A stretch of 35,770 bases of DNA from the NCBI RefSeq assembly GCF_001995255.1, contig NZ_MUZR01000051.1, positions 35,001-70,770 of the forward strand, read 5' to 3'. The notes under the pieces were generated by a model that worked only from the letters and a program-made list of their open reading frames with translations, was not told the DNA's origin and did no database searches. Below, in pieces: positions 2,707-18,430 of this stretch (its first letter is position 1; every line of letters begins with the position of its first letter). The stretch comes from Thioalkalivibrio halophilus (GTDB lineage Bacteria; Pseudomonadota; Gammaproteobacteria; Ectothiorhodospirales; Ectothiorhodospiraceae). Made by a program: the position numbers and the translations under genes.

Positions 2707-3885
2707 TCAGCGGCGAAAGCCTTCCTCGATCTTTTCGAGGAGGAACCGGGTGTCGTCCTCGTCCAGCGGTTCGCCGTCGATGTCCCGTGCACGCAGGAGG
2801 GACTGGCCGTTGTCCGCGGAGAGTTCGATCCGGTAGCGCGTGTCTGCGCGGCGGTCACCGCGACCGAACAGGCGGCTGAAGAAGCCACCTTCGTCTTCGT
2901 CGGCGCTGTCCGGGCGATAGGTGACTTCGTGCACCCCGCTGCGGCGGTCGCGTTCGTCGACGAGGAGGCCGGAACGGTCGAGGCGCGTGCCGAGGTGCCG
3001 CCATACCTGGTCCGCGTCGCTGTCAAAGCGAAGAACCAGTTCGTCGCCGACATTCTCGATGCGTGCGCCCGGCACCCGCTGGACCTCCGATTCGTCGGCG
3101 CGCTGACCGCCTTCGCCGGGGTCGCCGGTGAGCAGGAACAGGCGCAGGCGATTGAGCATTTCCGCCTCCAGCTCCGGATCGGAGGGGCGGGAAACCCAGA
3201 GGAAGCGTTCTTCGCCCACGGGCTGTTCTTCGGCCCCCCGATGGGTGATGTAGACCGCGGTGCGACCGTCTTCCTCGCGTTCCACGCGCAGGCGGTACCG
3301 GTCACGGGTGTTCGAGTCGTAGAGACCGCCAATGGTCCGGGCGATGAAGCCGCGGCTGCCGCTGAACGGGATACCGGCGCGGTCTTCGGCCCACTGGGTT
3401 TCCATGATGCCGACTTCCGGCTCGTTGCGTTCCAGCGGCAGGTTCTGGCTGTCCCAGAACGCGGCCAGACGATTCCACAGGGCGTCCGGGGCGGTATCGA
3501 CCGTCAGCCAGCGCGTATCGCCGTCACGCCAGATCTGTACGTCGCTGTCTTCGGGCAGGACCTGGACCTCGCCGGCGCGCGGCGCCAGGGCGCCCGTTCC
3601 ACCCGGTGTGCCGGTCTGTCGGGTATCGGGCTGCTGCATCTCGCGGGCGCTGACGCGTTCTCCCGGCGCGTCGGGGACGCGGTAGCCGTCGCGGCTGTCG
3701 GGGGCGCTGAGCTCGGGCGGAACCTCGAGGTCAGGGGCCTGACGGGATTCCTGATAAACAGGGCCACCGTCATCGGTACCGGCGCAGCCGGCGGTACCCA
3801 GGGCAAGGGCGACGGCCAGCGGCAGCGCCGCGGGCAGGTAAGCGCGTACGGTAGTACGAGCGGAAAAGGACGAAAAACGGGTCAT
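2707..3885 (-). CDS. bamC: Outer membrane protein assembly factor BamC (lipoprotein)
   Basis: A 392-residue lipoprotein. A hydrophobic signal sequence ends in the lipobox LGTAGC with the acylated cysteine at residue 34. After it comes a disordered Pro/Asp-rich stretch (residues 36-100), like the extended BamC N-terminus that contacts BamD. Two BamC-type domains follow: the first includes WNRLAAFWDSQNLPLERNE and RTIGGLYDSNTRDRYRLRVE, the second VWRHLGTRLDRSGLLVDERD. BamC is an accessory part of the BAM complex that inserts beta-barrel proteins into the outer membrane. The gene starts 8 nt downstream of the dapA stop and its GAGGT ribosome-binding site overlaps the dapA end, so the two are probably cotranscribed. 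Confidence 0.9.
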   Translation of the reverse strand: MTRFSSFSARTTVRAYLPAALPLAVALALGTAGCAGTDDGGPVYQESRQAPDLEVPPELSAPDSRDGYRVPDAPGERVSAREMQQPDTRQTGTPGGTGALAPRAGEVQVLPEDSDVQIWRDGDTRWLTVDTAPDALWNRLAAFWDSQNLPLERNEPEVGIMETQWAEDRAGIPFSGSRGFIARTIGGLYDSNTRDRYRLRVEREEDGRTAVYITHRGAEEQPVGEERFLWVSRPSDPELEAEMLNRLRLFLLTGDPGEGGQRADESEVQRVPGARIENVGDELVLRFDSDADQVWRHLGTRLDRSGLLVDERDRRSGVHEVTYRPDSADEDEGGFFSRLFGRGDRRADTRYRIELSADNGQSLLRARDIDGEPLDEDDTRFLLEKIEEGFRR

Positions 3886-3892
3886 GAACGGT

Positions 3893-4771
3893 TCATACCT
3901 CGATGCCGGCCTGGCGCATGGCGTCCAGAACCGGGGCGTGAAACGGAGCCGAAAGCGGTGTCAGCGGGAGGCGGATGCCTTCTTCCATCATGCCCATCTG
4001 CTGCAGCGCCCATTTGACCGGGATCGGGTTGGCTTCCAGGAACAGGGCCGAGTGCAGCCCGTCCAGCTGGCGGTTGATCTCGCGGGCTCGTTCGGCATCG
4101 CCTTCGCGTACCGCTCGGCACATCTCCGACATCAGACGCGGCGCGACGTTCGCCGTGACCGAGATGACGCCGTGGCCACCGGCCAGCATGAAGGCAAGTC
4201 CGTTGGCATCCTCGCCGCTGAACAGGTCCAGGCGGCTGCCGACACGTTCGACCAGTTCGGCGGTGCGCTCGTTGCTTCCGGTGGCTTCCTTGATGCCCAC
4301 GATGTTGGGCACCGCGGCAAGGCGTTCGACCGTTTCGGGCAGGATGTCGACCGCCGTCCGACCGGGCACGTTGTACAGGATCTGCGGGATGTCCACCGCC
4401 TCGGCGATGGCCTTGTGATGAAGATACAGGCCTTCCTGGGTGGGCTTGTTGTAGTAGGGGGCGACCAGCAGGCAGGCATCGGCACCGGCTTCCTTCGCGC
4501 ACCGGGTCAGGGCGATGGCCTCGCGGGTGGAGTTGGCTCCGGTTCCGGCAATGACCGGGAGCCGGCCATCGATGGTGCGCACGACGTGCGCGATGGCCTC
4601 GCAGTGTTCGTCGAAATCGAGGGTGGCCGATTCGCCGGTGGTGCCCACGGCGACGATGGCGTCGGTACCCGACTCGACATGGAATTCCAGCAGCCGATCC
4701 AGCGCTGGCCAGTCCAGGCTGCCATCGGCGTGCATCGGGGTCGCGAGCGCGACCATGCTGCCTTGAAACAT
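3893..4771 (-). CDS. dapA: 4-hydroxy-tetrahydrodipicolinate synthase
   Basis: A 292-residue enzyme that condenses pyruvate with aspartate semialdehyde in the lysine/diaminopimelate pathway. Visible motifs are GTTGES (residues 43-48, substrate-binding threonines), YNVPGRT with the catalytic tyrosine at 133, and GIKEATGS with the Schiff-base lysine at 161. Length matches the family (about 292). The ATG start follows a strong GGAGG about 6-10 nt upstream. It is first in the minus-strand dapA-bamC-hydrolase operon, an arrangement common in Gammaproteobacteria. Its 5' end faces gcvR across about 170 nt in which no clear site was recognised. Confidence 0.97.
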
Positions 4772-9862: not shown

Positions 9863-10807
9863 TCAGTGGATGCGGTCGACAATGTAACGCGCGAGATGGC
9901 GAAGCAAATCGGCCTCCGCATCCAGGGGTTGCAGCGCCTCGAGTGCCTGGTCGACCAGCGCCACCGCGCGTTCGCGCGAGGCTTCCAGGCCCATCAGCGC
10001 GGGGAAGGTCGACTTGTCCAGGCGCGCATCCGCTCCGCAGGCCTTGCCCAGGGTCTCCGGGTCGCCCTCGACGTCCAGGATGTCGTCGCGGATCTGGAAG
10101 GCCAGGCCGATACATTCGGCGTAGTCGGTCAGGCGCGTCAGCAGGGCGTCGTCGGCGCCGCCGGCCAGCCCGCCCAGGCGAACCGAGGCGCGGATCAGGG
10201 CGCCGGTTTTCAGCCGGTGCATGCCCTCCAGACCCGGCAGGTCCAGGCGCCCGCCGCAGGCTCCCAGATCGATGGCCTGGCCCCCGGCCATGCCCTGCAG
10301 GCCGGCGGCGCGGGCCAGTTCCTGCAGCATGACTGGGGCGCGCCCGGCCGGCAGTGCCGCCGTCCCGCTCGACAGCGTGACAAAGGCCTGCGCCTGCAGG
10401 GCGTCGCCGGCGAGGATCGCGGTGGCTTCGTCGTAGGCCCGATGACAGGTCGGGCGCCCGCGCCGCAGATCGTCGTCATCCATCGCCGGAAGGTCGTCGT
10501 GGATGAGCGAGTAGACGTGGATCATCTCCACCGCCGCGGCTGCGGCATCCAGCGCGTCCTGCGGGGCCCCCAGGGCCTCGCCGGTGGCATACACCAGCAG
10601 CGGGCGCAGGCGCTTGCCGCCGGAGAGCGTGGCATAGCGCATTGCCTCGATCAGCCGGGCGTCGGGCGCGCCGGCCGGATCGAGGGCTCGGTCCAGGACC
10701 CCCTCGATGCGTTCCTGATACGCGGGGATGGCCTGTTCGGGCGAGGTGGTGGCTGTCACGTCGGGCGTCCGCGGGTCCGGATCAGAAGGGCACCGGGTCA
10801 TCGTCAT
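9863..10807 (-). CDS. ispA: Farnesyl diphosphate synthase (polyprenyl synthetase)
   Basis: Up to 314 residues. The first aspartate-rich motif is [14 protein letters not shown] and the second [11 protein letters not shown], both needed to bind Mg-diphosphate. [18 protein letters not shown] near the N-terminus is also typical. The product extends dimethylallyl/geranyl diphosphate to farnesyl diphosphate. The start is uncertain. ATG 10807 overlaps the end of xseB by 26 nt. A GTG at 10759 would give about 298 residues, closer to E. coli IspA, but has no clear ribosome-binding site. Translational coupling with xseB is likely. Confidence 0.95.
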
Positions 10808-11066
10808 CCGTCGCGGGCGGGGTCCCGCTGGCGGCTTCCGGGTTGCCGGAGGTTTCGGTGGTCAGGGCTTCCATGCGCCGCTGGGCCTCGTCGAGGGCCC
10901 GCTGGCAGCGATCGACCAGCTGCATGCCCTGCTGGAACTCTTCCAGCGACTGTTCCAGACCCAGCTCGCCCGACTCCATGCGGGCCACCAGGGTCTCCAG
11001 GGCCTCCAGGCTGGCTTCGAAGTCGGCCGGGGTTCCGGGTGCGGGATCGGGAGTCTCGTCGGACAT
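10782..11066 (-). CDS. xseB: Exodeoxyribonuclease VII small subunit
   Basis: A 94-residue protein. The helical hairpin core FEASLEALETLVARMESGEL followed by LEQSLEEFQQGMQLVDRC is the signature of XseB, the small subunit that binds the XseA nuclease. The start at ATG 11066 (MSDETPDPAP) is chosen over the longer open frame because family proteins begin shortly before the FEASL block. The C-terminus is an acidic tail (DDDDPVPF) overlapping the start of ispA. It heads the minus-strand xseB-ispA-dxs operon and is divergent from the rubrerythrin operon. Confidence 0.92.
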   Translation of the reverse strand: MSDETPDPAPGTPADFEASLEALETLVARMESGELGLEQSLEEFQQGMQLVDRCQRALDEAQRRMEALTTETSGNPEAASGTPPATDDDDPVPF

Positions 11067-11134
11067 GGCGATTGTCGGCTGCAAAAACGGCCAAAGTACC
11101 GGATCCGCGCGTGCGTGAAAAGCACGGGGGCAGG

Positions 11135-11163
11135 TTGACAGGGCCGGGGGCAGGGCATACATT
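11135..11163 (+). promoter_or_regulatory. Probable sigma-70 promoter of the rubrerythrin operon
   Basis: A perfect -35 TTGACA (11135-11140) is followed after 17 nt by TACATT (11158-11163), which matches TATAAT at four of six positions. Transcription would start near 11170, about 93 nt before the rubrerythrin ATG and just before the palindrome at 11174-11190. Confidence 0.65.
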
Positions 11164-11173
11164 TGCGCTACGG

Positions 11174-11190
11174 TTTAGACAGAGTCTAAA
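11174..11190. promoter_or_regulatory. Operator-like palindrome of the rubrerythrin operon
   Basis: TTTAGACAGAGTCTAAA has perfect 7-bp arms (TTTAGAC/GTCTAAA) around AGA and lies at or just after the predicted transcription start, a position suited to a repressor. It partly resembles the TTAGAATNATTCTAA form of Fur/PerR-family boxes (11 of the 14 defined bases), and rubrerythrin is a classical PerR target in other bacteria. The regulator's identity is inference. The segment TTAGACAGAGTCT also resembles the palindromes at 14291-14690. Confidence 0.5.
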
Positions 11191-11262
11191 TCACCCTCTG
11201 CACTCGATGCGACACTCGCTCGTTGTGTCTGTGTAGAACCCATACGAAGAAGGAGAGACATC

Positions 11263-11682
11263 ATGGATCTGAAAGGCAGCAAGACCGAAGAAGCCCTGAA
11301 GGAAGCCTTTGCCGGCGAATCGATGGCGAACCGTCGCTATCTGTACTTCGCTTCCAAGGCGGACGTGGAAGGCTACAACGACGTCGCCACCGTGTTCCGT
11401 TCCACCGCCGAAGGTGAAACCGGCCACGCCCACGGCCACCTCGAGTATCTCGAGAGCTGCGGCGATCCGGCCACCGGCCTGGAGTTCGGTTCCACCGACG
11501 CGAACCTGAAGACGGCGGTCGCCGGCGAGACCCACGAGTACACCGACATGTACCCGGGCATGGCCAAGACCGCGCGTGACGAGGGCTTCGACGAAGTCGC
11601 CGACTGGTTCGAAACCCTGGCCAAGGCGGAGCGGTCCCACGCCAACCGCTTCCAGAAGGCGCTGGACCAGCTGGACGACTGA
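11263..11682 (+). CDS. Rubrerythrin-type ferritin-like diiron protein (no rubredoxin domain)
   Basis: A 139-residue four-helix diiron protein. Ligand motifs are visible: [29 protein letters not shown] (ExxH), [22 protein letters not shown], and [12 protein letters not shown] (second ExxH). Full rubrerythrins carry a C-terminal rubredoxin domain with two CxxC motifs. This one ends after the ferritin-like domain, so it needs an outside electron donor. Family function is peroxide reduction. It starts with a good AAGGAGAG ribosome-binding site and leads the operon rubrerythrin - Fe-S oxidoreductase - ferritin-like - DUF3501. The neighbouring Fe-S protein is a candidate donor (inference). Confidence 0.93.
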
Positions 11683-13503: not shown

Positions 13504-14115
13504 ATGGTAACGGAGGAAAACGTGGACAAGCTCAGCCGTGACGACCTGTATTCCCTGGAACAGTATTCCGAGGTACGGCCCAAATTCCGCCGCGACGTGA
13601 TGGAGCACAAGCGCCACCGCGTGCTGCAGATCGGTCCTGCGGTCACCCTGCACTTCGAAGACCGCATGACCATGCAGTACCAGGTCCAGGAGATGCTGCG
13701 GGTCGAGAAGATCTTCGACCGCGAGGGCATCGAGGACGAACTGGGTGCCTACAACCCGCTGATCCCGGACGGCTCCAACTGGAAGGCGACCATGATGGTC
13801 GAATTCCCCGACGCGGACGAGCGCAAGGTGCAGCTGTCGAAGCTGATCGGCATCGAGCGTGCGACCTGGGTGCAGGTGGAAGGCCACGACAAGGTCTACC
13901 CGATCGCCAATGAAGACCTCGACCGCGAGACCGAAGACAAGACCTCGTCGGTGCACTTCCTGCGCTTCGAGCTGACGCCGGCGATGGTGTCGGCGGTCAA
14001 GTCCGGCGCGGCCATCGCCGCCGGCGTGGAGCACGAGAACTACAACCACCGCGTGGACGCCGTGCCCGAGGGCATGCGCGAATCGCTGGCGGCGGATCTC
14101 GACGCCGTGAACTGA
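13504..14115 (+). CDS. DUF3501 family protein
   Basis: A 203-residue soluble protein. Recognised by the N-terminal LSRDDLYSLEQYSEVRPKFR and the core VGPAVTLHFEDR-like stretch (here IGPAVTLHFEDRMTMQYQVQ), followed by LRVEKIFDREGIEDELGAYN. DUF3501 proteins have no known biochemical function and usually sit in operons with rubrerythrin and a GlpC-like Fe-S protein, as here. No cysteines or membrane segments are seen. The ATG at 13504 is supported by GAGGAGGTGAG; the longer open frame runs back through the previous gene. Last gene of the operon before a strong terminator. Confidence 0.88.
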   Translation: MVTEENVDKLSRDDLYSLEQYSEVRPKFRRDVMEHKRHRVLQIGPAVTLHFEDRMTMQYQVQEMLRVEKIFDREGIEDELGAYNPLIPDGSNWKATMMVEFPDADERKVQLSKLIGIERATWVQVEGHDKVYPIANEDLDRETEDKTSSVHFLRFELTPAMVSAVKSGAAIAAGVEHENYNHRVDAVPEGMRESLAADLDAVN

Positions 14116-14141
14116 CGCGCGGATTCCCGCACGCAGCAGTG

Positions 14142-14168
14142 AAAAAGGCGCCTCCGGGCGCCTTTTTT
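14142..14168 (+). terminator. Rho-independent terminator of the rubrerythrin operon
   Basis: AAAAAGGCGCC, loop TCCG, GGCGCCTTTTTT: perfect GC stem with flanking A and T runs, 26 nt after the DUF3501 stop. The A/T symmetry would let it work in both directions. Confidence 0.93.
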
Positions 14169-14290
14169 GTGTGCAGGCCACGTGGATCCGCGGTCCGGCA
14201 GGTTCCGGCTCGCCCCGGGGTTTCAGGGATTTACCCGGGCCTCCCGCCGTTGCGCTGACCGGTGGGGCGCTGCCGTCCGTTCTGGCTTCA

Positions 14291-14319
14291 CGATGTTATA
14301 CAGAATCCGTATAGCATCG
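14291..14319. repeat. 29-nt imperfect palindrome, core TATACAGAATCCGTATA
   Basis: Positions 14291-14304 pair with 14306-14319 except at two places (14296/14314 and 14302/14308). The core TATACAGAATCCGTATA matches the core of the perfect palindrome at 14647-14673 with changes only at the centre and one arm base. It looks like a protein-binding operator or a small stem. Function unknown. Confidence 0.6.
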
Positions 14320-14570
14320 ACCGTCTGACGGGCTGCCGACCTTGCATCGACAATATCTGCCCCTCCATGGTGAGGTGACCGGCAATGCCCTCCGCCACGA
14401 GTCCCGCCAGACGAGGCCCGGGGAACCGAGTGATCAACCGTTCCGTCCGCACCGATTACCGGTGAGCCCACTTTACCTTAACCCCTTGAAAAAACGCGCC
14501 TCCCGGTGTCCTTCCCGCAATCAGCGCCCCCTTCCGGCACGGATCCCTGTCGCCATGAGCTCACCTCACG

Positions 14571-14599
14571 GTTTAGCCATGATCCCACCATGGCTAAAC
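14571..14599. repeat. Inverted repeat, 11-bp arms, 7-nt spacer
   Basis: GTTTAGCCATG (14571-14581) and CATGGCTAAAC (14589-14599) are perfect inverted copies separated by ATCCCAC. No T run follows on either strand, so it is not an ordinary terminator. It could be a binding site, an RNA stem or a remnant of a mobile element end. Confidence 0.6.
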
Positions 14600-14646
14600 T
14601 GTCGGAGCAGAAGCCACCAGAGGAAGGGGCGGTGCCGCGAGGATCA

Positions 14647-14673
14647 GGTGATATACAGACTCTGTATATCACC
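14647..14673. repeat. 27-nt perfect palindrome, core TATACAGACTCTGTATA
   Basis: Thirteen-base arms are perfectly complementary around a single central C at 14660. The outer ends are GGTG and CACC. A perfect 13-bp dyad of this kind is far beyond chance and suggests a dimeric regulator site or a DNA cruciform. It sits about 28 nt before the first cassette boundary and could control transcription into the cassettes (inference). Confidence 0.7.
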
Positions 14674-14679
14674 AATATT

Positions 14680-14690
14680 ACAGATTCTGT
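14680..14690. repeat. Third ACAGANTCTGT palindrome
   Basis: ACAGATTCTGT is a perfect 5-1-5 palindrome whose centre (14685) is 25 nt from that of the preceding palindrome (14660). On the opposite strand the surrounding bases read TTAGACAGAATCTGTAA. That is very close to TTAGACAGAGTCTAAA in front of rubrerythrin. Confidence 0.5.
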
Positions 14691-14713
14691 CTAATCTGCT
14701 GTTGGGTGACAAG

Positions 14714-15265
14714 ATGAGCAGTGCCGACAAACTCGCTGAAGCCAGCTTTTTTCTGGAGCTATTGGATGCTCTAGAAAATAGAAAGCGCCCGCTTACGAGC
14801 GGTGCAACGCCAGCGATGGAAGTCTCCTACTTGCTCAGTGCTGTCCTCAACTCTCTTTATTCAGCTCTTGAGCAGGCAAAGCCAATTGCGGGTGTTGAGG
14901 CAGTCAAGGCATACAAGGCCACCCGCTCGGCGCTACTAGGTGGCCAGGGTGTTCGCAACATCACCATTCACGAGAAGCATGTCGGCATTGATCATTCTGG
15001 CTACATTCCGCCACCGGGTAACGCGGTTAACTTCGACCTCCGCAAAACGCCACGTTTAATCCAAGAAGAGCGAGCTGCTTCAAAGGGTGTCGTAGTGCGT
15101 ATGGGCGCCAAACACTATATCGAGCATGAGGGCAAGCTTACTGATGTCACTGAGCTTTGCTTTCGCCAGTTCTATGAGCTGCGTGCATTCCTTAGCTCTC
15201 GCGGGATTGTCACCCAACAAGACGCTCAAGCGGACAGCCCCGCCTCCGGCGGGCCTGCCGCTTAG
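14714..15265 (+). CDS. Cassette 1 protein, HEPN-like helical protein (function unknown)
   Basis: A 183-residue protein, mainly helical. Residues 7-20 (LAEASFFLELLDAL) and 36-53 (MEVSYLLSAVLNSLYSAL) look like long amphipathic helices, followed by VKAYKATRSALL. GVRNITIHEKH contains R81-N-x3-H86, which fits the Rx4-6H motif, with a polar residue after R, that defines HEPN ribonucleases. A HEPN-type RNase or toxin role is therefore possible but unproven. The last 16 or so residues (QQDAQADSPASGGPAA) are encoded by the attC site itself, so they are probably not functional. The ATG is 12 nt inside the cassette boundary with only a weak ribosome-binding site. Confidence 0.75.
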   Translation: MSSADKLAEASFFLELLDALENRKRPLTSGATPAMEVSYLLSAVLNSLYSALEQAKPIAGVEAVKAYKATRSALLGGQGVRNITIHEKHVGIDHSGYIPPPGNAVNFDLRKTPRLIQEERAASKGVVVRMGAKHYIEHEGKLTDVTELCFRQFYELRAFLSSRGIVTQQDAQADSPASGGPAA

Positions 15266-15279
15266 CTTCGGCGTTAAGG
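15211..15279 (+). repeat. attC site of cassette 1
   Basis: R'' core CACCCAAC (15211-15218) and R' core GTTAAGG (15273-15279) bound an imperfect inverted repeat: ACGC/GCGT, AAGCGG/CCGCTT, CAG/CTG and CCCGCC/GGCGGG around a short loop. Unpaired bases between the blocks are as expected for extrahelical bases in a folded attC. Length about 69 nt. The stop codon of the cassette gene lies inside (15263-15265). Confidence 0.92.
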
Positions 15280-15304
15280 GCCCATACCAGACAAAGGAGA
15301 TCAG

Positions 15305-16225
15305 ATGCCACGTTATTGGGTGATTGCCCCCATAGATTCTCAACCAGCTGACTTCTTCGAGAAGGTGTGGCGCTTTGATGTCGAAAATGAAGTCATCTCA
15401 ATTGGTTGGTCTCAGTTCGGTGATGTTTCCGGCATGAGTCGAGGCGAGCTGGCAGAGGTCGTGGCCGACCACTACCCTGAGAAGCCGCAGCAGACCAAAG
15501 GCTTGATCACTAATATGGTGTGGTCATTTTGCAACGAGATAGAGTCGGGCGATGTCGTTATAGCCCGGCGTGGAAGAAAGATGCTCGCAGCCGTAGGCAC
15601 AGTCCGAGAGAAAGCATTCTACGAGACTGGGAAAAACCCTGATGTAGATCACCGGCTTTTCCTTCCTGTGACATGGCACCAAGAACCCAGAAACAAAGAC
15701 TTTGGTGCAGTAGTGTTTCCCATGCCTACTCTGGCAGAAATTGATGAAACTCAATTCCAGAATCTCGTCGAGGGGTCGGGGCTCGAACTCGCCAAGAGCG
15801 AGGAGGGAGAGACTTACGAGAATCAAGCAGAGTTTGTTCTGGAAAAGTACCTCGAGGAATTTATCGTCTCCAATTTTTCAGGAATATTTAAGGGTGAGCT
15901 CCAGGTATATGTAGACGAGGACGGTAATACTGGGCAGCAGTACACCACGGACATTGGTTCGATTGATATTCTTGCGGAAGACCGCCGCAGCAACTCTCTG
16001 GTGGTTATTGAGCTCAAAAAGGGACGCCCTTCGGATCAGGTGGTAGGGCAAATCATGCGCTACATGGGATGGGTCAAAAAGAACCTTGCGCAAGAAGGCC
16101 AGAGGATACGAGGGCTTGTAATTTGCTGCGAGGAAGATCAGAGACTTAGCTATGCGCTAGAAATGATTGATCATGTTGATGTCCGGTACTACAGGGTGTC
16201 GTTTTCGCTTTCGGAGCGCCCTTAA
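15305..16225 (+). CDS. Cassette 2 protein: PUA/EVE-like domain fused to a NucS-like PD-(D/E)XK nuclease
   Basis: A 306-residue protein. The N-terminal part (residues 3-150) has YWVIAP, NEVISIGWSQFGDVS and SGDVVIARRGRKMLAAVGTV. These resemble PUA/EVE-like domains that read modified bases or occur in restriction proteins (inference). The C-terminal part (about 175-300) resembles endonuclease NucS/DUF91: IGSIDILAED (D221), LVVIELKKGR (E236, K238) and QIMRYMGWV (Q249, Y253). The spacings K-11-Q and Q-4-Y fit NucS as I recall it. A nuclease targeting modified or foreign DNA is plausible. AAAGGAGAT lies just before the ATG. The TAA stop overlaps the attC R'' core. Confidence 0.85.
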   Translation: MPRYWVIAPIDSQPADFFEKVWRFDVENEVISIGWSQFGDVSGMSRGELAEVVADHYPEKPQQTKGLITNMVWSFCNEIESGDVVIARRGRKMLAAVGTVREKAFYETGKNPDVDHRLFLPVTWHQEPRNKDFGAVVFPMPTLAEIDETQFQNLVEGSGLELAKSEEGETYENQAEFVLEKYLEEFIVSNFSGIFKGELQVYVDEDGNTGQQYTTDIGSIDILAEDRRSNSLVVIELKKGRPSDQVVGQIMRYMGWVKKNLAQEGQRIRGLVICCEEDQRLSYALEMIDHVDVRYYRVSFSLSERP

Positions 16226-16278
16226 CAAAACGCTCAACCGGACGCTCGTACCTCGCGCCGGTTAGCTTTGCGTTAGCT
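16219..16278 (+). repeat. attC site of cassette 2
   Basis: R'' core CCCTTAAC (16219-16226) and R' core GTTAGCT (16272-16278), with ACGC/GCGT and AACCGG/CCGGTT arms. About 60 nt, the short form common among chromosomal attC sites. Its R'' is the exact complement of GTTAAGGG at the left edge of the cassette. Confidence 0.93.
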
Positions 16279-16292
16279 AGTGAGTACAAAAA

Positions 16293-16311
16293 GCACATAG
16301 TGTGCTAAACT
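16293..16311 (+). promoter_or_regulatory. Operator-like palindrome and possible -10 of the brnTA cassette
   Basis: GCACATAGTGTGC (16293-16305) is a palindrome with five-base arms, immediately followed by TAAACT (16306-16311), a fair -10 element. Transcription would begin about 7 nt later, practically at the ATG of brnT (16319), which has no visible ribosome-binding site. This suggests a leaderless message. Autorepression by the antitoxin at this palindrome would fit the family (inference). The -35 is not clear. Confidence 0.4.
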
Positions 16312-16318
16312 TTGACCT

Positions 16319-16597
16319 ATGAAACCTATCACATGGAACCCAGAGAAGAACAAGCTTCTCCAAGCAGAAAGGAACGTCTCTTTCGAGGATGTGGTTTTGC
16401 ATATCTCGGTTGGAGGCATCTTGGATACGTTCGAGCATTCGAATCAGGAGCGATATCCGGGGCAACAAATTCATGTGATTGAGATTGAGGGGTATGCGTA
16501 TTTGGTGCCCTTTGTGGAGTCAGAGGATGAGGTTTTTCTGAAAACGATCATCCCGAGCCGGAAAGCGACCAAAACCTATTTGGGAGGTCCAAAATGA
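16319..16597 (+). CDS. brnT: BrnT family ribonuclease toxin (cassette 3)
   Basis: A 92-residue protein. The opening ITWNPEKNKLLQAERNVSFE, the central DTFEHSNQERYPGQQ and the closing FLKTIIPSRKATKTYLG match the BrnT/DUF497 family. Its members are RelE-fold ribonucleases that stop translation and are neutralised by BrnA. The usual family order is toxin first, antitoxin second, as here. The gene overlaps its antitoxin by 4 nt, typical of translational coupling. As an integron cassette, a toxin-antitoxin pair may stabilise the array against loss. Confidence 0.9.
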   Translation: MKPITWNPEKNKLLQAERNVSFEDVVLHISVGGILDTFEHSNQERYPGQQIHVIEIEGYAYLVPFVESEDEVFLKTIIPSRKATKTYLGGPK

Positions 16598-16866
16598 GTA
16601 GGCTGGATAAAGAAGAGCAGGAAGTTCTGGATGCATTCGATGCAGGAGAGCTGCAGAGGTCGCCAGACAGTGAAGACAGGAAACTGCGGCATCAACAATA
16701 CGCCGAGGCCATGTTCAAAAAAGATGCCCGTATTAACATCAGGCTTTCTTCCAAGGATCTTCGGGGGCTCCAGAAGAAAGCCCTGGCGGAAGGTATTCCC
16801 TACCAAACACTTGTTGCCAGCATCCTTCATAAATATGTGGAAGGTCGCTTGCACGAGGATCGATAG
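16594..16866 (+). CDS. brnA: BrnA-type antitoxin with C-terminal ribbon-helix-helix region (cassette 3)
   Basis: A 90-residue protein. The C-terminal RINIRLSSKDLRGLQKKALA followed by EGIPYQTLVASILHKY is a CopG/ribbon-helix-helix-type DNA-binding region. The charged N-terminal part (residues 1-45) is probably the toxin-wrapping part. BrnA antitoxins bind BrnT and repress their own promoter. The ATG overlaps the end of brnT (ATGA-type overlap at 16594-16597). The stop codon TAG at 16864-16866 is part of the attC R'' core, showing how tightly the cassette is packed. Confidence 0.88.
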   Translation: MSRLDKEEQEVLDAFDAGELQRSPDSEDRKLRHQQYAEAMFKKDARINIRLSSKDLRGLQKKALAEGIPYQTLVASILHKYVEGRLHEDR

Positions 16867-16942
16867 CTAACCAGGCCATGCACCGGATGCCAAAACCTCC
16901 GCTTCGCTCTGGTTTTGTCACCGGTGATGGCGGGCGTTAGCG
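16864..16942 (+). repeat. attC site of cassette 3 (last in the array)
   Basis: R'' core TAGCTAAC (16864-16871) and R' core GTTAGCG (16936-16942), with arms GCCAT/ATGGC, CACCGG/CCGGTG and CAAAACC/GGTTTTG around a loop near 16898-16908. About 79 nt. The R'' is the exact complement of GTTAGCTA at the left edge of the cassette. No further attC follows, so TTAGCGG to the right comes from the ancestral insertion site or attI. Confidence 0.9.
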
Positions 16943-17080
16943 GCTCATGAACCGACATCGCTGCACACATCAGGCACATGATCGGGCGAAGGTGGAAGGG
17001 GTGGGAGGCTTGCGGCGCCACAAGATCCACCAGCGGTGGGGCCGGGGGTAGGCACTGCACGGGAGGCGGCCCGGGCTCGA

Positions 17081-18430
17081 CTACAGCGCGTCGAGGACCT
17101 CGCCCAGGCGTGAGACGGCGACTACCTCCATGCCCTTGATTGGCTTGCGCGGGGCGTTGGCGGCGGGGGCGATGGCGCGGGTGTAGCCGTGCTTGGCGGC
17201 CTCGCGCAGGCGTTCCTCGCCGTTGGGGACCGGGCGGATCTCGCCTGCCAGGCCCACCTCGCCGAAGGCCAGCAGTTCCTGCGGCAGGGGCCGGTCCCGC
17301 AGGCTGGAGAGTGCGGCGGCCAGCATCGGCAGGTCGGCGGCGGTTTCGGTCACGCGTACGCCGCCGACCACGTTGATGAACACGTCCTGGTCGAACAGGG
17401 CGACGCCGCCATGGCGGTGCAGCACCGCCAGCAGCATGGTCAGGCGGTTCTGCTCCAGGCCCACGGTGATGCGTCGCGGCTGCGAGGCGTGGCTCTCGGC
17501 GACCAGGGCCTGGACCTCCACCAGCAGCGGGCGCGTACCTTCGCGGGTGACCATCACTACGCTGCCGGGCACCGGGTTCTCGTGGCGTGACAGGAAGATC
17601 GCCGAGGGGTTGGAGACCGGTTTGAGGCCGGTCTCCAGCATCGCGAACACGCCCAGCTCGTTGACCGCGCCGAAGCGGTTCTTGACCGCCCGCAGCATGC
17701 GGTAGCGCCCGTCCGGATCGCCCTCGAAGTACAGCACGGTGTCGACCATGTGTTCGAGGATGCGCGGGCCGGCCAGCTGCCCGTCCTTGGTCACGTGGCC
17801 GACCAGGATCACGGTGATGCCGCGCTGCTTGGCGAGCCGCACCAGCGCCGCGGCGGCATCGCGCACCTGGCTGACCGAGCCCGGGGCCGACTGCGAGGCC
17901 GCGGTGAACAGGGTCTGGATCGAGTCGATCACCAGCACCCCGGGGCGTTCGCTTTCGCAGGTGGCAATGATGTTTTCGACCTGTGTCTCGGTCAGCAGGC
18001 GCAGGCCGTCCACTTCCAGCCCCAGGCGCTGCCCGCGCATGCTCACCTGCTGGGCCGACTCCTCGCCGGTCACATACAGGGTCTGCTCCGCCGGCAGGGC
18101 GGCCAGGGTCTGCAGCAGCAGGGTCGACTTGCCGATGCCGGGATCGCCCCCGATCAGGATCACCGAGCCGGTGACCAGGCCGCCGCCCAGCGCGCGGTCG
18201 AGTTCGGAGATCCCGGTGGAGGTGCGCGGCAGCTCGCCCGTCTCGACCTCGCCCAGCCGGGTGATGCGTGCGCTCTCGCCGGCATAGCCGCCGCCGCGCG
18301 GCCCGGCGGAGGCGACCGGCGCGGCCTCCTCGAGGGTGTTCCAGGCGCCGCATTCCCCGCACTGGCCGGCCCATTTGGGCGAGGTCGCGCCGCAGGCGCG
18401 GCAGATGTACTGAGTCTTGCTGCGGGCCAT
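17081..18430 (-). CDS. radA: DNA repair protein RadA (RecA-like, Lon-like domain)
   Basis: A 449-residue protein that helps branch migration and processing of recombination intermediates. Order of motifs: N-terminal zinc finger CRACGATSPKWAGQCGECGA, Walker A GGDPGIGKST, Walker B VLVIDSIQTL, the RadA-specific KNRFGA in RAVKNRFGAVNE, and the C-terminal Lon-protease-like domain (GGVRVTETAADLPMLAA). Length is typical. It starts 1 nt after the yfjD-like gene stop, in the operon ypjD - yfjD-like - radA. It is the first core gene to the right of the integron cassettes and is transcribed toward them. Confidence 0.97.
   Translation of the reverse strand: MARSKTQYICRACGATSPKWAGQCGECGAWNTLEEAAPVASAGPRGGGYAGESARITRLGEVETGELPRTSTGISELDRALGGGLVTGSVILIGGDPGIGKSTLLLQTLAALPAEQTLYVTGEESAQQVSMRGQRLGLEVDGLRLLTETQVENIIATCESERPGVLVIDSIQTLFTAASQSAPGSVSQVRDAAAALVRLAKQRGITVILVGHVTKDGQLAGPRILEHMVDTVLYFEGDPDGRYRMLRAVKNRFGAVNELGVFAMLETGLKPVSNPSAIFLSRHENPVPGSVVMVTREGTRPLLVEVQALVAESHASQPRRITVGLEQNRLTMLLAVLHRHGGVALFDQDVFINVVGGVRVTETAADLPMLAAALSSLRDRPLPQELLAFGEVGLAGEIRPVPNGEERLREAAKHGYTRAIAPAANAPRKPIKGMEVVAVSRLGEVLDAL

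Follow-up and report, generated by a model that had tools for sequence, protein, structure and literature searches.

The window analyzed here, a stretch of 35,770 nucleotides of Thioalkalivibrio halophilus (contig NZ_MUZR01000051.1, positions 35,001 to 70,770 of the forward strand), contains an array of three integron cassettes that lies behind a remnant of an integron integrase gene and an attI-like leader (Table 1). The second cassette carries a gene for a protein of the candidate family PDC-S02, in which a predicted EVE/YTH-like reader domain precedes a predicted nuclease domain of the EndoMS/NucS type. Searches of Pfam (E up to 1), PADLOC and PHROGs, and of plasmids by tblastn, gave no match to the protein encoded in the first cassette. 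The third cassette encodes a BrnT/BrnA-like pair, and long matches to it (16319-16866), 72-77% identical, are present in several congeners.

Table 1. Features of the cassette array and its attI site (window coordinates).
Feature	Position	Strand	Basis or remark
5' remnant of integron integrase gene, rest of intI absent (limits approximate)	14266..14580	-	homology to intI of contig C10
attI-like leader, GTTGGGT core at 14701-14707	14644..14707	+	homology to C10 leader and three congeners
Cassette 1 ORF, 183 aa	14714..15265	+	no Pfam, PADLOC or PHROG match
attC of cassette 1, R' box GTTAAGG at 15273-15279	15212..15279	+	hairpin with R''/R' boxes
PDC-S02 gene (cassette 2), ATG to TAA, 306 aa	15305..16225	+	EVE/YTH-like reader and EndoMS/NucS-like PD-(D/E)XK nuclease (predicted)
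Codons of D221, E236-x-K238, Q249, Y253	15965..16063	+	invariant in 65/65; aligned to NucS residues
attC of cassette 2, R'' box CCTTAAC	16220..16278	+	hairpin; R'' overlaps stop codon of PDC-S02 gene
Cassette 3 BrnT-like toxin ORF	16319..16597	+	Pfam BrnT_toxin 3.2e-05, under gathering score
Cassette 3 CopG/BrnA-like antitoxin ORF	16594..16866	+	Pfam CopG_antitoxin 7e-06, slightly under gathering score
attC of cassette 3, end of array	16865..16942	+	hairpin; homology to congener locus L135 resumes inside, at 16927

The PDC-S02 protein is matched by the PADLOC model PDLC04824 with an E-value of 5.3e-55 (residues 47-303 of 306, profile positions 48-306 of 308) and by a second PDC-S02 model, PDLC04799, with an E-value of 3.6e-45. 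Of the Pfam models, NucS_C is above its gathering score (9e-08) and YhcG_C slightly under the cut-off (2.9e-07). Judged by sequence comparison, the family match (PDLC04824 and NucS_C) is far beyond chance. Phage records yield no relative at an E-value of 1e-5, and four IMG/VR contigs encode one; three of these belong to the second clade of the tree described below and the fourth matches in the nuclease half only.

Organization of the Integron Cassettes

The PDC-S02 gene is cassette 2 of the array. The cassette opens with GTTAAGG and closes with CCTTAAC, which are exact complements, and attC sites flank the gene, so that the terms used for it in the original prediction, a cassette and a single mobile gene, are borne out. 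The attC sites were scored by position weights and arm pairing after training on ten sites, namely the three of the window, five of the Marinobacter scaffold L032 and two of L116; the window sites score 60.2, 58.1 and 72.7 compared to a best score of 46.6 in 1.33 Mb of reversed sequence, but the scores of all three loci are inflated because their sites are in the training set. Among the loci outside this set, scores above 46.6 are reached in Smithella L033 (56.4, 56.4 and 48.9) and Chromatiales L035 (50.2 and 48.1), and single sites barely above this value also occur, away from the gene, in L039, L087 and L117. An attC finder that demanded near-perfect arm pairing recovered only the second attC of the array.

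Cassette ends are found in part of the close relatives. A strict R''/R' pairing test, which was passed by 3/20 close loci downstream and 2/16 upstream compared to 0/63 and 0/62 far loci and was failed by the window itself, was replaced by a test of the boxes within one cassette because, in an array, the R' box belongs to the next cassette. Complementary within-cassette boxes are found in seven of the 16 close loci with readable flanks, the window included (5/21 are without such flanks), which corresponds to 7/15 rows of the tree, and in 0/63 far loci. The seven loci have four kinds of box pairs (GTTAAGG, GTTATGG, GTTAGGG and GTTAGGC with their complements); when cassette ends are swapped between different close loci, 27 of 240 combinations are complementary. 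Similarly, YYYAAC is located at the stop codon in 11/21 close versus 1/63 far loci, and GTTARR within 60 nt upstream in 9/17 versus 4/63. Neither of these two motifs is present in L041, L046, L048 and L051 of the close group, and at least three members of the close clade (L041, L046 and L048) show no cassette end whatever. An integron integrase above the curated cut-off is encoded in six of the 20 genomes with loci L032-L051; the 14 genomes without one are represented by assemblies that may be incomplete.

The nearest relative of the window protein, 92% identical over the matched part, is encoded in L032, an array of short ORFs several of which appear by eye to be toxin-antitoxin-like. With the scoring used above, five attC sites of this array reach at least 45; all of them belong to the training set. 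The L032 copy of the PDC-S02 cassette is 89.6% identical to the window over 15273-15990, and the match opens exactly at the R' box (15273); no full attC is visible just 5' of the copy. The BrnT/BrnA-like cassette 3 is also present there (94.5% identity). Near residue 229, and thus N-terminal to E236 and K238, the PDC-S02 copy (3716-4441) departs from the window protein and continues into a different ORF, which may reflect either a natural truncation or a join in the metagenome assembly; no second copy was found in this genome.

Over the 226 codons common to the window gene and the Marinobacter copy, dN/dS is approximately 0.09 (dS 0.43, dN 0.04), which indicates that the reading frame has been under purifying selection. 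This low value argues against the view that the cassette is inert or decaying cargo without a present function in the host, as do the full length of the ORF, the presence of all five motif residues and the GGAG located just 5' of the ATG. The truncated Marinobacter copy could be taken to favor such decay, as could the result of a consensus scan that detected no promoter-like site on the strand of the gene in 14100-17100, but the attI leader upstream may hold a promoter for the array. On balance, inert cargo appears very unlikely.

Predicted Structure and Conserved Residues

For structure prediction, an alignment (A3) of 65 full-length sequences was used that includes the window protein, 61 proteins from genome contigs and three from viral contigs. 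It was derived from the best 80 of 294 confirmed loci after exclusion of fragments and of sequences with a different or doubtful N-terminal part, and it does not contain the nearest copy, that of Marinobacter L032. The AlphaFold2 model built on this alignment has a mean pLDDT of 88.7 and a pTM of 0.55, and shows a reader domain (approximately residues 1-161), a linker (approximately 162-173) in a region of weak prediction at approximately 161-180, and a nuclease domain (approximately 178-300). A single-sequence AlphaFold2 model of residues 1-163 (mean pLDDT 44) was set aside.

A Foldseek search of the PDB with this model gives five matches at E-values up to 0.001, which are to EndoMS, NucS and a YTH domain. 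In VIA-align comparisons of the predicted model, the nuclease domain (residues 178-300) superimposes on EndoMS (5gke) with a Z score of 13.6 (rmsd 2.5, 110 aligned residues) and on NucS (2vld) with a Z score of 13.3. The reader domain (residues 1-161) fits PH1033 (1wmm; Z 11.4, rmsd 2.2, 114 aligned residues), which we take to be an EVE protein, as well as VcaM4I (6yex; Z 10.9, rmsd 3.2, 125 aligned residues) and many YTH domains (Z about 10, about 119 aligned residues). The Pfam models of EVE, YTH and PUA give no match to the window protein at E-values up to 1, with HMMER filters that remove most weak matches, and none across the 65 aligned sequences at E-values up to 0.01. Thus, in the predicted model, the reader half is EVE/YTH-like and is recognized as such by its fold only.

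These models supply the structure prediction of both halves that the original prediction had called for. The ORF is present, and D221, E236-x-K238, Q249 and Y253 lie exactly where they had been placed; the NucS-like nuclease at the C-terminus is upheld by both the predicted fold and the NucS_C match. The PUA/EVE-like nature of the N-terminus holds at the level of the fold (1wmm, 6yex and YTH domains) but has no counterpart in a sequence-model match at the thresholds used.

In a phmmer alignment with Pyrococcus abyssi NucS (2vld), the E-value of which is only 0.11 for the single sequence, D221, E236, K238, Q249 and Y253 pair with D160, E174, K176, Q187 and Y191, so the NucS-like spacing proposed for these residues is correct; D160, E174 and K176 of 2vld are presumably catalytic. 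All five residues are identical in each of the 65 sequences of A3. The genome-contig loci had been gathered by means of two peptide patterns, one of which, VGQ[IV][QM]RYM, favors Q249 and Y253, whereas D221, E236 and K238 are outside both patterns. The original prediction had named loss of the catalytic residues in homologues as evidence against it; no such loss is seen in the 65 sequences, and the Marinobacter copy, left out of the alignment, ends before E236.

In the reader half, W124 is present in all 65 rows. W5, W22, W35, F75, R88, K92 and F138 do not vary among the 15 closest rows and are mostly replaced by other residues in the remaining 50. Position 35, which follows the second strand, is tryptophan in 15/15 close rows and aromatic in 49 of the 50 others; by eye, we liken it to the cage tryptophan of YTH domains. 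When the position of W82 of VcaM4I is mapped by eye on the conserved GD strand, it corresponds to R88 in 15/15 close rows and to proline in 48/50 others. In VcaM4I, the flipped 5mC or 5hmC is held mainly by P24, W82 and Y130, according to the accessible part of PMC7897488.

The closeness of the catalytic domain to the mismatch endonuclease EndoMS/NucS raises the possibility of a repair-type or RNA-directed nuclease, which would read either damaged or mismatched bases, like EndoMS, or modified RNA, like YTH proteins, with defense a secondary role or none at all. The latter variant draws on EVE domains being known primarily from RNA biology (accessible part of PMC7897488). However, the score of the window protein with the NCBIfam NucS equivalog is far under the cut-off (39.2 versus 216 bits; second model, 20.4 versus 252 bits), for which reason membership in the NucS mismatch-repair family was dropped, and the similarity to NucS sequence models is limited to the catalytic part (residues 211-277 of 306). 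In addition, the gene is patchily distributed, with matches at an E-value of 1e-15 in 12 of the 369 genomes of the class, several of them only partial, and its location on a cassette, along with the restriction neighborhoods of its relatives, is unlike that of a housekeeping repair gene. We consider a repair or RNA-directed role unlikely.

Phylogeny and Genomic Neighborhoods of the Relatives

In the tree of the 65 sequences, the window protein and 14 others form one clade with a branch support of 100/100. These 14 full-length relatives are 42-62% identical to the window protein and are assigned to eight phyla (Pseudomonadota, Thermodesulfobacteriota, Myxococcota, Hydrogenedentota, Planctomycetota, Acidobacteriota, Kryptoniota and Chloroflexota), but single assignments may be wrong because, by their titles, all 14 come from metagenome bins, some of the contigs being only 3-10 kb long. 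The other 50 rows make up the second group, and long branches with full support lie between the two clades. Both the candidate family (PDC-S02) and the architecture are known, and the window protein belongs to a distinct clade with cassette-borne members.

The neighborhoods of the distant relatives are of a different kind. For the distant genome-contig loci L053-L111 (n=59), which mostly belong to the second group of the tree although a few share chiefly the nuclease half, and for the viral loci, the nearest ORF of 120-1200 aa, if present, was taken on each side. This yielded 114 ORFs, of which 105 were scanned, two long ones and seven next to viral loci being left out. At E-values up to 1e-10, these 105 ORFs include matches to type I methyltransferases (20), type I restriction endonucleases (18) and specificity subunits (18), counts that are per model and may overlap. 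On an Acinetobacter plasmid, the relative is encoded directly 3' of hsdS, and an Abi gene is located between it and hsdR; a Paracoccus protein that shares the nuclease but has a different N-terminus is encoded between the M and S genes. The expectation that homologues would be found in defense surroundings is thus supported for the distant relatives. No restriction-modification gene is annotated next to the other plasmid relatives examined, which are from Paenarthrobacter, P. aeruginosa and Halobaculum; the P. aeruginosa relative adjoins a gene of an abortive-infection family.

This association, which extends to plasmids, could mean that the entire family consists of accessory nucleases of type I systems, which would, for instance, read the N6-methyladenine made by HsdM or clear restriction intermediates, the cassette clade being a free-living offshoot cued by a resident methyltransferase or by phage methylation. 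The N-terminal domain would be compatible with such a role, since the matched YTH domains include several m6A readers and it fits them about equally well as it fits EVE proteins. However, the cassette gene has no such partner next to it, and no restriction-modification model matches the ORFs of the array. Moreover, the clades are split by long, fully supported branches and differ in several conserved aromatic positions, and an enzyme reading self m6A would be expected to attack its own host. An accessory role in type I systems appears rather unlikely, and the type I association of the other clade could also mean that these nucleases act on modified phages missed by type I restriction, or that they cooperate with it directly.

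Both halves of the protein also occur in other combinations. In L020 and L007, a similar N-terminal domain is joined to a nuclease of the Mrr type (P0001 match 1.3e-09 and 6.5e-06; Mrr_cat 4.7e-24 and 3e-22, respectively), and the NucS-like domain of L013 is located 3' to a DUF3427 match. Because the PADLOC label spans several such layouts and is also given to L020 with its Mrr nuclease, genome counts of PDC-S02 do not measure how often the architecture described here occurs. An Mrr-like C-terminal half following an EVE/YTH-like N-domain is seen in L004, L007, L018 and L020, of which L007 and L020 were run against Mrr_cat. The loci with such N-domains (L004, L007, L008/L019, L018 and L020) include those of two congeners, one of which has L007; in one of the two, the open frame is 215 aa long.

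Comparison with Known Systems and Predicted Function

EVE-PD(D/E)XK proteins have been listed previously as putative type IV enzymes (accessible part of PMC7641849). In the accessible parts of the papers that name PDC-S02, the family is given as predicted or software-identified: of 39 P. aeruginosa strains with a predicted PDC-S02, 59.0% were phage-resistant, which is a correlation only, and a rumen survey counted PDC-S02 2715 times under a label that covers several architectures. In the literature searched, no experiment on the window gene or on the PDC-S02 family was found. The terms NucS, EVE, integron and PUA are absent from the DefensePredictor paper. Among the works on integrons and defense and on NucS or EVE proteins in restriction or defense, no title or beginning of an abstract reports the cassette clade; the main integron-defense papers of 2025 are outside this coverage, so absence is not proven.

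The closest known counterparts are the relatives described by the PADLOC PDC-S02 models (308 positions): the profile match is near whole-length, and the best-fitting relatives align over the full length and share the catalytic residues. Nevertheless, the window protein is only 29-32% identical to the five relatives in alignment A1, its gene is located on an integron cassette rather than next to type I restriction-modification genes, and the residues W5, W22, W35, F75, R88, K92 and F138, invariant in its clade, are mostly absent from the other 50 rows. VcaM4I (6yex), an EVE-HNH enzyme that restricts the 5hmC phage T4gt (accessible part of PMC7897488), is likewise the product of one gene with an EVE-like reader, a linker and a C-terminal nuclease; in contrast, its nuclease is of the HNH type whereas that of the window protein is predicted to be an EndoMS/NucS-type PD-(D/E)XK enzyme, and the position of W82 appears by eye to be R or P in the PDC-S02 proteins. 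EndoMS/NucS (5gke and 2vld) share the fold of the catalytic domain and the D-ExK-Q-Y motif but not the N-terminal half, which in the window protein is EVE/YTH-like. CMoRE, a one-gene type IV enzyme of the GIY-YIG type (accessible part of PMC12923530), similarly combines a reader with a nuclease and lacks a partner methyltransferase, but the nuclease is unrelated. Finally, phage defense genes carried as integron cassettes are described by Darracq 2025, Getz 2025 and Kieffer 2025, as summarized in the accessible part of PMC12444791, and the cassette studied here, with its defense candidate, resembles them in this respect.

The joining of a reader-type domain to a predicted DNA-cutting domain points to a probable one-gene defense against phages with altered DNA. 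It appears fairly likely that the PDC-S02 gene encodes a one-gene, modification-dependent (type IV-like) restriction nuclease that is moved by integrons. The EVE/YTH-like domain would probably flip out and recognize a modified base in incoming (phage) DNA, and the EndoMS/NucS-like domain would then cut the modified DNA by means of D221, E236 and K238. The nuclease would probably act as a dimer, as VcaM4I and EndoMS do. A methyltransferase would not be required because unmodified host DNA would not be a target, and no methyltransferase model matches the window gene or the ORFs of the two neighboring cassettes. The predicted anatomy, with a reader, a linker and a nuclease but no methyltransferase, fits that of type IV enzymes. 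This reading is favored by the fold matches of both halves, the invariant catalytic residues, the PADLOC assignment, the type I genes next to distant relatives, the fusion of a similar N-domain to an Mrr nuclease, the precedents of EVE-PD(D/E)XK proteins and VcaM4I, the low dN/dS, the cassette structure and the PDC-S14 candidate at the corresponding site of L137. Points that weigh against it are the absence of Pfam matches for the reader half, the R or P at the place assigned by eye to W82, the shortened Marinobacter copy (although this may be an assembly join) and the cassette boxes being complementary in only 7/15 close members. The ORF, predicted fold, conserved residues, cassette boundaries and clade are computed, whereas the dimer, base specificity, DNA cleavage, phage defense and integrase action in trans are inferred. 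This compact, complete and cassette-borne member, the fold of which is predicted well and in which catalytic and candidate pocket residues are defined, makes the mechanism of the family testable with a single gene.

The attI Site and Its Variable Content

The segment 14266-14703 of the window aligns over 441 bp, with 77% identity, to a region of contig C10 of this genome (G000:C10:71127-71566) that comprises the 5' part of an intact intI gene and the attI leader of this gene, which places the array behind an integrase remnant and an attI site. The attI homology ends at 14703 in the comparison with the C10 intI leader and at 14700-14703 in the comparison with three congeners. A search of the own genome found no match to the integron integrase family on the contig of the window (C51); altogether, three attI sites and a single integron integrase above the cut-off are present in this genome.

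In two of the congeners (G024 and G022), the same remnant and attI are located between a DUF3501 gene and radA; in the third (G026), radA comes after the remnant and attI, and on the upstream side the match begins at 14119, just past the DUF3501 gene, with a further 255 bases to the contig end unmatched. The DNA between attI and radA differs from that of the window in all three congeners, and homology to the window resumes at 16927, inside the attC of cassette 3, in G024 and at 17081 in G022 and G026. These different inserts behind a shared attI indicate a fixed site with exchangeable content. The insert in G022 (L137) contains an ORF (1406-2239) for a 278-aa protein that matches DUF4357 (3e-19), shows a weak GIY-YIG match under the cut-off (0.032) and is assigned to PADLOC PDC-S14 at 2.4e-99. 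The two ORFs of the G024 insert and the one scanned ORF of the G026 insert have no Pfam match above the cut-off and no PADLOC match. Thus, a one-gene defense candidate occupies the attI slot in two of the four species, PDC-S02 in the window and PDC-S14 in G022.

Under the favored interpretation as a modification-dependent nuclease, the gene would travel as an integron cassette. Here it is the second of three that follow an orphan attI with a fixed place in the chromosome, and this site could be served in trans by the intact integron integrase encoded elsewhere in the genome. A broader and only tentative extension is that the cassette-adapted EVE/YTH-like-NucS clade, with members in bins of eight phyla, might be a type IV enzyme spread by integrons that reads a base modification outside the range of the known enzymes, and that the attI slot between the DUF3501 gene and radA, kept after the loss of the integrase, might exchange one-gene modification-dependent nucleases (PDC-S02 and PDC-S14). 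The window also suggests that a single integron cassette can carry restriction of modified phage DNA from one phylum to another, and that loss of its own integrase gene need not end the use of an attI site.

Among the 30 genomes of the genus, the 60-bp attI core is present in nine, and a TIGR02249 integrase at 1e-60 in only three. The third attI copy of the own genome (G000:C35:17125-17184) belongs to another array (G000:C35:16118-17184) on a contig with no integron integrase match; there, the attI core is followed within about 1 kb by an attC stretch with 45 bp identical to the attC of the PDC-S02 cassette. The intact integron integrase ORF of L116, on the minus strand (10032-11489), is long (485 aa by the longest ORF) and has two SAM-like Pfam stretches; several integron integrase matches in the genomes with loci L032-L051 also lie in open frames of 464-511 aa. 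The attI leader of the window contains the palindromes ATATACAGACTCTGTATAT and ACAGATTCTGT (14650-14692), which are largely kept in the C10 copy and are possible operator or integrase-binding sites.
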